DNA from: Candidatus Bathyarchaeota archaeon
GTDB taxonomy: Archaea > Thermoproteota > Bathyarchaeia > Bathyarchaeales > Bathycorpusculaceae
Direction of reading: 5' to 3'
DNA: 34,695 bases
NCBI GenBank assembly: GCA_029881805.1
Contig: JAOULW010000016.1
Span: forward strand, 1-34,695
Shown one piece after another: positions 18,058 through 24,343 of the stretch. How positions within the stretch are numbered: position 1 is the stretch's first letter; each line of letters begins with the position of its first letter. Made by a program: the position numbers and the translations under genes. A model generated the notes under the pieces. The model did no database searches. It was given only the letters and a program-made list of their open reading frames with translations, and was not told the origin of the DNA.

Positions 18058-18175
18058 GGGCTGCCAGCTTTCCCGGTTTCGCGTGGCCTAAGACCACACT
18101 ACAGCCGGAAACGGAGCGCAGTTTAACTTCTGAGTTCGGAATGGGTTCAGGTGGATCCCGCGCCCTATGGCCGGC
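18058..18175 (-). rRNA. rrf: 5S ribosomal RNA
   Basis: Read on the minus strand, GCCGGCCATAGGGCGCGGGA is followed by CACCTGAACCCATTCCGAAC, TCAGAAGTTAA and a loop E region, ending GGGAAAGCTGGCAGCCC. This is the universal 5S core. GCCGGC (18175-18170) pairs with GCTGGC (18068-18063) as helix I, fixing the ends to within a few bases. A TATA-like AGTTTTAA (about 18202-18193) lies at the right distance upstream. No 16S or 23S gene is near, so it is an isolated 5S gene, as is usual in many archaea. Confidence 0.95.
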
Positions 18176-18191
18176 AAACCCCAGAATACAC

Positions 18192-24016: not shown

Positions 24017-24127
24017 CCATCGTAAACAGTTAGGACATTTCCATAATAGAAATTGAGATAGATAAAAATTGTTCTAAACAAAGTAAACGGCCAAAGTCAG
24101 CTACTTTCAGTCAAAAGGGAATAACGC

Positions 24128-24140
24128 ATATATTTTATCC
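24128..24140 (+). promoter_or_regulatory. TATA box of the tRNA-Trp gene
   Basis: CATATATTTTATC is a strong archaeal TATA element about 35 bases ahead of the mature tRNA 5' end at 24173, implying a 5' leader of about 10 bases to be trimmed by RNase P. Confidence 0.6.
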
Positions 24141-24172: not shown

Positions 24173-24343
24173 GGGGCTGTAGTCTAGGCAGGTATGACGA
24201 CGGGCTCCAGAAAGTAGCAAACGTGTTTGCGGACCAGCTGCTTGGGATGACGAGGTTCTGGAGCGGTCAGGAGAAACCCGTAGGAGCAGCCAAGCGCTGT
24301 TTCCGGGGAAAGGTCGTCGGTTCAAATCCGGCCGGCCCCACCA
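24173..24343 (+). tRNA. tRNA-Trp (CCA anticodon) with two predicted introns and encoded CCA
   Basis: The acceptor stem GGGGCTG (24173-24179) pairs with CGGCCCC (24333-24339), discriminator A 24340, then encoded CCA. The T arm is GTCGG-TTCAAAT-CCGGC (24316-24332). The anticodon stem ACGGG (24200-24204) pairs with CCCGT (24277-24281), and the loop starts CTCCAG with anticodon CCA at 24207-24209. Intron 1: 24211-24275 (65 nt), after position 37. CTCC (24205-24208) pairs with GGAG (24270-24273), with bulges AG/A and AA/A, the splicing bulge-helix-bulge motif. Intron 2: 24282-24310 (29 nt), between positions 43 and 44. An inner helix GGAGCAGC/GCTGTTTCC, bulge GT/A, CCC pairing with GGG and bulge AA/A leave AGGTC as a normal variable loop. 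Exons are 38, 6 and 33 nt. Splicing is inferred. Confidence 0.92.
24211..24275 (+). other. tRNA-Trp intron 1 with C-box-like motif and anticodon-loop antisense
   Basis: The 65-nt intron carries ATGACGA (24247-24253, one mismatch to the C box RTGATGA) and then TTCTGGAG (24256-24263), which is perfectly complementary to CTCCAGAA of the precursor anticodon loop. GTCA (24266-24269) is a poor D'-box. In haloarchaea the tRNA-Trp intron acts as a C/D guide for 2'-O-methylation of C34. Here the base opposite C34 lies 5 bases before GTCA, as the guide rule requires, but the D' box deviates. Confidence 0.45.

Follow-up and report, generated by a model that had tools for sequence, protein, structure and literature searches.

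Archaeal transfer RNA (tRNA) genes with several introns bounded by bulge-helix-bulge (BHB) motifs are known from Thermoproteales, Caldiarchaeum and the Asgard lineages Atabeyarchaeia and Freyarchaeia, the last two reportedly having multiple introns in over half of their tRNA genes (PMC11291895). The stated maximum is three introns per tRNA gene (PMC8450103, PMC4033280, PMC3293823), and close introns that require sequential removal have already been described for tRNAscan-SE 2.0 (PMC8450103). Here we describe a tRNA-Trp(CCA) gene with two introns, located at 24173-24343 on the plus strand of a 34,695-nt stretch of Bathyarchaeia DNA (the window, whose numbering is used throughout). The window corresponds to contig 15 in an assembly of 2.2 Mb (G000; 100% complete, 2.63% contamination). 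Like the Haloferax tRNA-Trp gene, the window gene has an intron of ~65 nt at 37/38 with guides placed for positions 34 and 39, which in Haloferax belong to a nested box C/D sRNA (PMC4090602). In contrast to Haloferax, boxes can be recognised only for the internal D'/C' pair, nucleotide 39 is a C, and a second intron lies 6 nt downstream of the first. The Caldiarchaeum tRNA-Thr(GGU) gene also has two introns, one of them near the variable loop (24/25 and 45/46; PMC3293823), but it encodes another tRNA and its introns are far apart. From the multi-intron genes of Thermoproteales, Caldiarchaeum and the Asgard lineages, the Bathyarchaeia tRNA-Trp genes differ in their 6-nt middle exon, in a CCC with three alternative pairings and in the up to four introns of some relatives. 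Archaeal tRNAs with several introns, relaxed motifs and removal in sequence all have precedents, to which the window gene, taken alone, adds one more case; what sets the gene family apart is its shared CCC, the guide in intron 1 and the relatives with four introns.

The gene consists of three exons of 38, 6 and 33 nt, which together form a 77-nt tRNA-Trp(CCA) including the CCA. Exon 1 (24173..24210) contributes the 5' strand of the acceptor stem, the D arm and positions 27-37, with the anticodon CCA at 24207-24209; exon 2 (24276..24281) is ACCCGU, positions 38-43; exon 3 (24311..24343) holds the variable loop AGGUC, the T arm, the 3' strand of the acceptor stem and the encoded CCA. Intron 1 (24211..24275, 65 nt) interrupts the gene at 37/38, the same position as in every parsed relative, and intron 2 (24282..24310, 29 nt) at 43/44. 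Removal of both restores a standard tRNA, as judged by ARAGORN, which reads the product as tRNA-Trp(cca) of 77 nt with CCA, and by the empty sites of relatives. On the unspliced window the default mode of ARAGORN returned zero tRNAs, and with introns allowed it mis-spliced the locus with a single 90-nt intron; because of this, tRNA-Trp could seem to be missing from Bathyarchaeia genomes. Rfam, which together with ARAGORN was the only means of tRNA gene detection used here, matched the tRNA family at 24173-24340 (37.7 bits) and no sRNA family at the locus. An earlier note on this DNA had proposed the same two introns and middle exon, and all of its coordinates and sequences hold at the locus; it overlooked the guide in intron 1 and the extra introns of the relatives. 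We consider it very probable that the gene is functional and encodes tRNA-Trp(CCA), two archaeal introns of the protein-spliced kind being removed from its transcript. Sequence, empty sites, covariation, a single type of Trp gene and the enzyme genes are observed; cleavage, the order of removal and methylation are predictions from them.

The evidence for intron 2 comes from the tRNA-Trp loci of relatives, which were fetched and split wherever they were found among 100 relatives, and from 67 distinct occupied sites. Many relatives lack intron 2 exactly and read AAACCCGT|AGGTC (e.g. L094, L096, L097, L098, L102 and L104), so that the joined CCCGT|AGGTC predicted from the window by taking out 24282-24310 exists as such in other genomes. 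These empty sites occur in relatives of the same order and even the same family, and L113-L115 are also empty at 43/44, with ACCCAT as exon 2. Where the intron is present, a GGG lies six to four bases upstream of the 3' cut in 67/67 distinct introns (24305..24307 in the window) and pairs with C41-C39 of exon 2 as the central helix. The intron ends in AA in 59/67, its length ranges from 27 to 45 nt, and exon 2 is ACCCGU in 66 of the 67, the remaining one being ACCUGU, where exon 1 and the guide have changed correspondingly. The inner hairpin, GGAGCAGC / GCUGUUUCC (24283..24304), covaries. In 50 distinct trimmed sequences, 94.5% of the cells of the proposed structure were paired against 87.0 +/- 0.7 in shuffles and 12-61% in slid control structures, and double-sided changes of the inner stem numbered 45 cells against 14.4 +/- 4.8 in shuffles. 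The four bulge-proximal inner pairs vary on both sides among relatives with 98% of cells paired; of the compensatory changes for which the earlier note had proposed to look, those in the inner helix do exist.

An AGG is present at both junctions of intron 2 and the sequence alone would permit any cut from 43/44 to 46/47; it is the splice motif alone that selects 43/44. Junctions at 44/45, 45/46 and 46/47 were rejected for their poorer pairing in the central helix, as judged by eye and, for 46/47, without a full working-out. For the window copy, the inner helix of which contains one bulged U, the folding program prefers a 2-nt register, but we favour the 3-nt bulge GU|A because the first inner pair switches between G-C and A-U among relatives. 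Intron 2 thus has an invariant CCC/GGG central helix, a covarying inner helix and a 3-nt bulge at its 5' cut. Two features fit a complete splice motif less well. By inspection we found no convincing 34-37 / 45-48 pairing that could serve as the outer helix of a full hBHBh' motif, on the far side of the 3' bulge, and the outermost pair of the motif in the window copy is the A38.G mismatch that had been recognised from the sequence. The base opposite A38 is U in 41, G in 22 and C in 4 of the 67 relatives, and it is U in the second copy of the window's own genome. Of the BHB motifs originally proposed for both junctions, the CTCC/GGAG helix of intron 1 and the CCC/GGG and GGAGCAGC/GCTGTTTCC helices of intron 2 are present, and it is the outer helix of intron 2 that is not evident; for this reason the motif is better termed a relaxed HBh' than a full BHB.

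Intron 1 fits the archaeal BHB type, which is defined by its 37/38 position and by a 4-bp helix flanked on each side by a 3-nt bulge. When intron 2 is removed from the window precursor, the anticodon stem and the CUCC/GGAG helix both form in the lowest-energy fold and the 3' bulge is AAA; the 5' side has an internal loop instead, which makes the motif slightly relaxed. A comparison of 85 distinct introns revealed a common layout: the guide ACGGGUUUG, a box D' (CUGA/CGGA), a box C' (AUGA(A/C)GA) and a second guide ending in UUCUGGAGC. In the window the D' guide is ACGUGUUUG (approx. 24220..24228; ACGGGUUUG in most relatives) and pairs with AA|ACCCGU, so that the fifth nucleotide upstream of D' faces C39. 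It is followed by the D'-like CGGA (approx. 24229..24233; CGGA in 49, CUGA in 34 and CCGA in 2 of the 85) and the C'-like AUGACGA (approx. 24247..24254; AUGA(A/C)GA in most of the 85), both close to the consensus CUGA and RUGAUGA. The second guide, GGUUCUGGAGCG (12 nt, 24254..24266), is conserved and complementary to GCUCCAGAA, that is, to positions 31-37 plus the start of the intron; with the standard 12-nt spacing, from which the D box position is deduced, the fifth nucleotide upstream of D faces C34. The GUCA just downstream would be a non-consensus D box.

The first guide changes together with its target. All 51 loci with the guide ACGGGUUUG and the six with ACGGGUUUA match the target and the exon-1 ACGGG perfectly, while L093 combines ACAGGUUU with AAACCUGU and an exon-1 ACAGG, L092 combines ACGGGUAU with AUACCCGU, and L113-L115 combine AUGGGUAU with AUACCCAU. 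The window guide has a single G-to-U mismatch opposite C41 that the second copy lacks. What speaks against a guide RNA is that the terminal boxes are missing, with no RUGAUGA at the start of the intron and no CUGA at the expected place near its end; because of this we call the intron C/D-type and not a full box C/D member. On this ground, and because folding predicts long helices from these complementarities in some of the precursors, it is possible, though in our view doubtful, that ACGGGUUU/AAACCCGU and UUCUGGAG/CUCCAGAA are structural elements for folding the precursor and not methylation guides. Against this stands the D'/C' spacing, which sets the fifth nucleotide opposite C39 and C34 just as in the Haloferax tRNA-Trp intron (C34 and U39; PMC4090602). 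From its sequence, then, intron 1 carries a putative box C/D-type guide aimed at C34 and C39, which, while the intron is present, would pair across both junctions of exon and intron 1 and direct 2'-O-methylation of the two residues.

The guide adds a third partner to the CCC of exon 2, which had been recognised from the sequence as shared between the anticodon stem and intron 2: C39-C41 can pair in the anticodon stem (in the mature tRNA and in the intron-1 motif), with the GGG of intron 2, or with the guide in intron 1. Because both splice motifs need C39-C41 they are mutually exclusive, and removal of the introns should therefore be sequential. The suggestion that the order may matter is thus borne out as far as the exclusive use of these bases and the modelled folding energies go. 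The window precursor folds at -65.0 kcal/mol when the intron-2 pairing is made and at -60.5 kcal/mol when the anticodon stem is made instead (4.5 kcal/mol apart). Among 54 distinct precursors, 53 likewise favour pairing with intron 2 over the anticodon stem, by a median of 4 kcal/mol. These energies suggest that intron 2 is likely to be removed before intron 1. Part of the modelling weakens the case for that order. Once intron 2 is gone, the intron-1 BHB comes out best for the window copy, yet this is so for just 5 of the 54 precursors, other folds such as the guide-target duplex winning in the rest; automatic formation of the intron-1 motif upon loss of intron 2 is thus true of the window copy and, by folding energy, not of most relatives. 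Folding energies by themselves make a weak argument for any order. The reverse order, in which intron 1 leaves first from a BHB held by the anticodon stem and intron 2 follows, or a free order, would draw on the same introns. A few relatives have the anticodon-stem pairing of C39-C41 within ~1 kcal/mol of the intron-2 pairing, and the intron-2 motif still forms in the fold once intron 1 has been removed; given the preference of full precursors for the intron-2 pairing, we regard this alternative as rather unlikely.

In the pathway that we favour, with intron 2 most likely leaving ahead of intron 1, an (alpha-beta)2-type endonuclease would cut the relaxed motif at 43/44 (C39-C41/GGG, bulge GU|A, 3' cut AA|A), and the same enzyme would cut the BHB at 37/38, with the anticodon stem as outer and CUCC/GGAG as central helix; a ligase would then join the exons of 38, 6 and 33 nt. 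A bolder version, which we put forward only tentatively, is a sequential switch in which the CCC passes from the methylation guide of intron 1 (C39) to the intron-2 motif and then to the anticodon stem, so that methylation would have to come before the loss of intron 2, and the loss of intron 2 before that of intron 1. In sister lineages the gene would reach four introns in five exons, more introns than any tRNA gene on record. With the shared CCC, splicing order becomes a testable necessity and not a guess.

The enzyme genes agree with this pathway. Two EndA paralogues are encoded in the genome (open reading frames L131 and L132). One keeps the catalytic motif GPGIEHAP, its nearest Protein Data Bank structures being crenarchaeal catalytic subunits (2cv8, 3p1z and 3ajv), and the other lacks the histidine; a catalytic and a noncatalytic paralogue make up the (alpha-beta)2 splicing endonuclease, as judged from the genes alone. 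Relaxed motifs are known substrates of the two-subunit type of endonuclease (PMC4033280).

With the window gene as query, one other copy was found in the assembly (C35:360-530, L035), 93% identical and with both introns. A gene fragment upstream of it is ~75% identical to the neighbour of the window gene, and this copy may be a diverged duplicate or lie on the contig of a close relative; another assembly (G004) likewise contains two tRNA-Trp copies. The 41 Rfam tRNA hits in the genome have other anticodons wherever these are readable, and a search with the spliced sequence found no uninterrupted Trp gene in this genome or in six relatives, five of them single-contig assemblies. In this genome tRNA-Trp is thus a single gene type, with two introns, and the intact second gene that the earlier note had allowed for turns out to be interrupted in the same way.

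Two other explanations are very improbable. That the locus is a decayed pseudogene, with tRNA-Trp supplied by another gene, would find room in the presence of two copies, but the exons of both are undamaged, each keeps the two introns and the shared promoter element, the search of the assembly gave no third Trp gene, and the two-intron architecture persists over a large clade. That the 29-nt segment is retained as the long variable arm of a type-II-like tRNA-Trp, for which its stable hairpin beside the variable loop could be taken, is contradicted by the precise empty sites, the invariant GGG complementary to the anticodon-stem strand, the AA at the 3' junction and the variable length; tRNA-Trp is otherwise a tRNA with a short variable loop.

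The two-intron form of the tRNA-Trp gene recurs in relatives. When its pattern was compared with a GTDB-based genome set, 60 stretches matched, nearly all of them from Bathyarchaeota, Bathyarchaeum or Bathycorpusculum, the others from an MCG-6 archaeon, a bin labelled Nitrososphaerota, an uncultured archaeon and Ca. Hecatella. In a survey of 257 genomes of the class, 88 had the occupied 43/44 pattern, a number that includes a few hits to other tRNAs; empty 43/44 sites were scattered over several families. Relatives have additional tRNA-Trp introns in the D loop, at 25/26 and at 28/29. Those at 28/29 have a GACG/CGUU central helix in 15/15. On inspection, a CUAG/CU(A/G)G helix suits the D-loop intron, and excision at this site gives back D arms known from intron-free relatives, GTCTAGCCAGGGATGAC among them. 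D-loop and 28/29 introns occur together in 21 genomes, and 13 of these 21, out of the 257 surveyed, have four introns (D loop, 28/29, 37/38 and 43/44), according to the pattern survey compared with parsed loci. Among the four-intron genomes are single-contig assemblies (G072, G087 and G093), one matching the chromosome record CP070820, and the four-intron gene is present in the record of Ca. Bathyarchaeum tardum. Ten distinct four-intron genes were parsed (L089 at G081:C5, L086, L090, L099, L101, L105, L155, L161, L176 and L182), each of which yields a tRNA-Trp of 74 nt plus CCA; a product of this size is read as tRNA-Trp in almost all parsed loci. A literature search for four-intron tRNA genes and for tRNA introns of Bathyarchaeota/Bathyarchaeia, with subscription papers and supplements outside its reach, returned nothing relevant. 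If splicing proceeds as predicted, one tRNA with one to four introns within a single archaeal class would be a natural series in which one could test directly how introns are gained and lost, in what order they are spliced and how tolerant the endonuclease is.

Several further observations concern these introns. The 25/26 intron is found in L068 (G021:C33) and L110 (G076:C21); G021 belongs to the window's own family and has introns at 25/26, 37/38 and 43/44. Similar stem introns follow AACCCGT, at ~43/44, in other tRNA genes (G098:C6:27434-27489, G095:C128:16610-16665, G189:C112:13481-13536 and G068:C27:27533-27588), and for this reason movement of introns between tRNAs is possible. Assembly G024 contains one locus without (L100, C44:4993) and one with intron 2 (L116, C29:5819) and is possibly a mixed bin. 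In the window's own assembly, a tRNA-Met(CAU)-like gene has a probable 45/46 intron (C13:48604-48707, L033), and a tRNA-Lys(CUU) gene has an odd insertion in the 5' anticodon strand (C10:13854-13956, L121).

Upstream of the mature 5' end lies a TATA-box-like promoter element, GCATATATTTTAT (24119..24140, plus strand), which is kept in the second copy. Among 90 distinct regions upstream of the gene in relatives, 75 have TATA-like words between -62 and -28, compared with 1 of 44 control stretches. The only rRNA family with a match in the window is 5S, its gene being located on the minus strand at 18059-18178 (72.6 bits).
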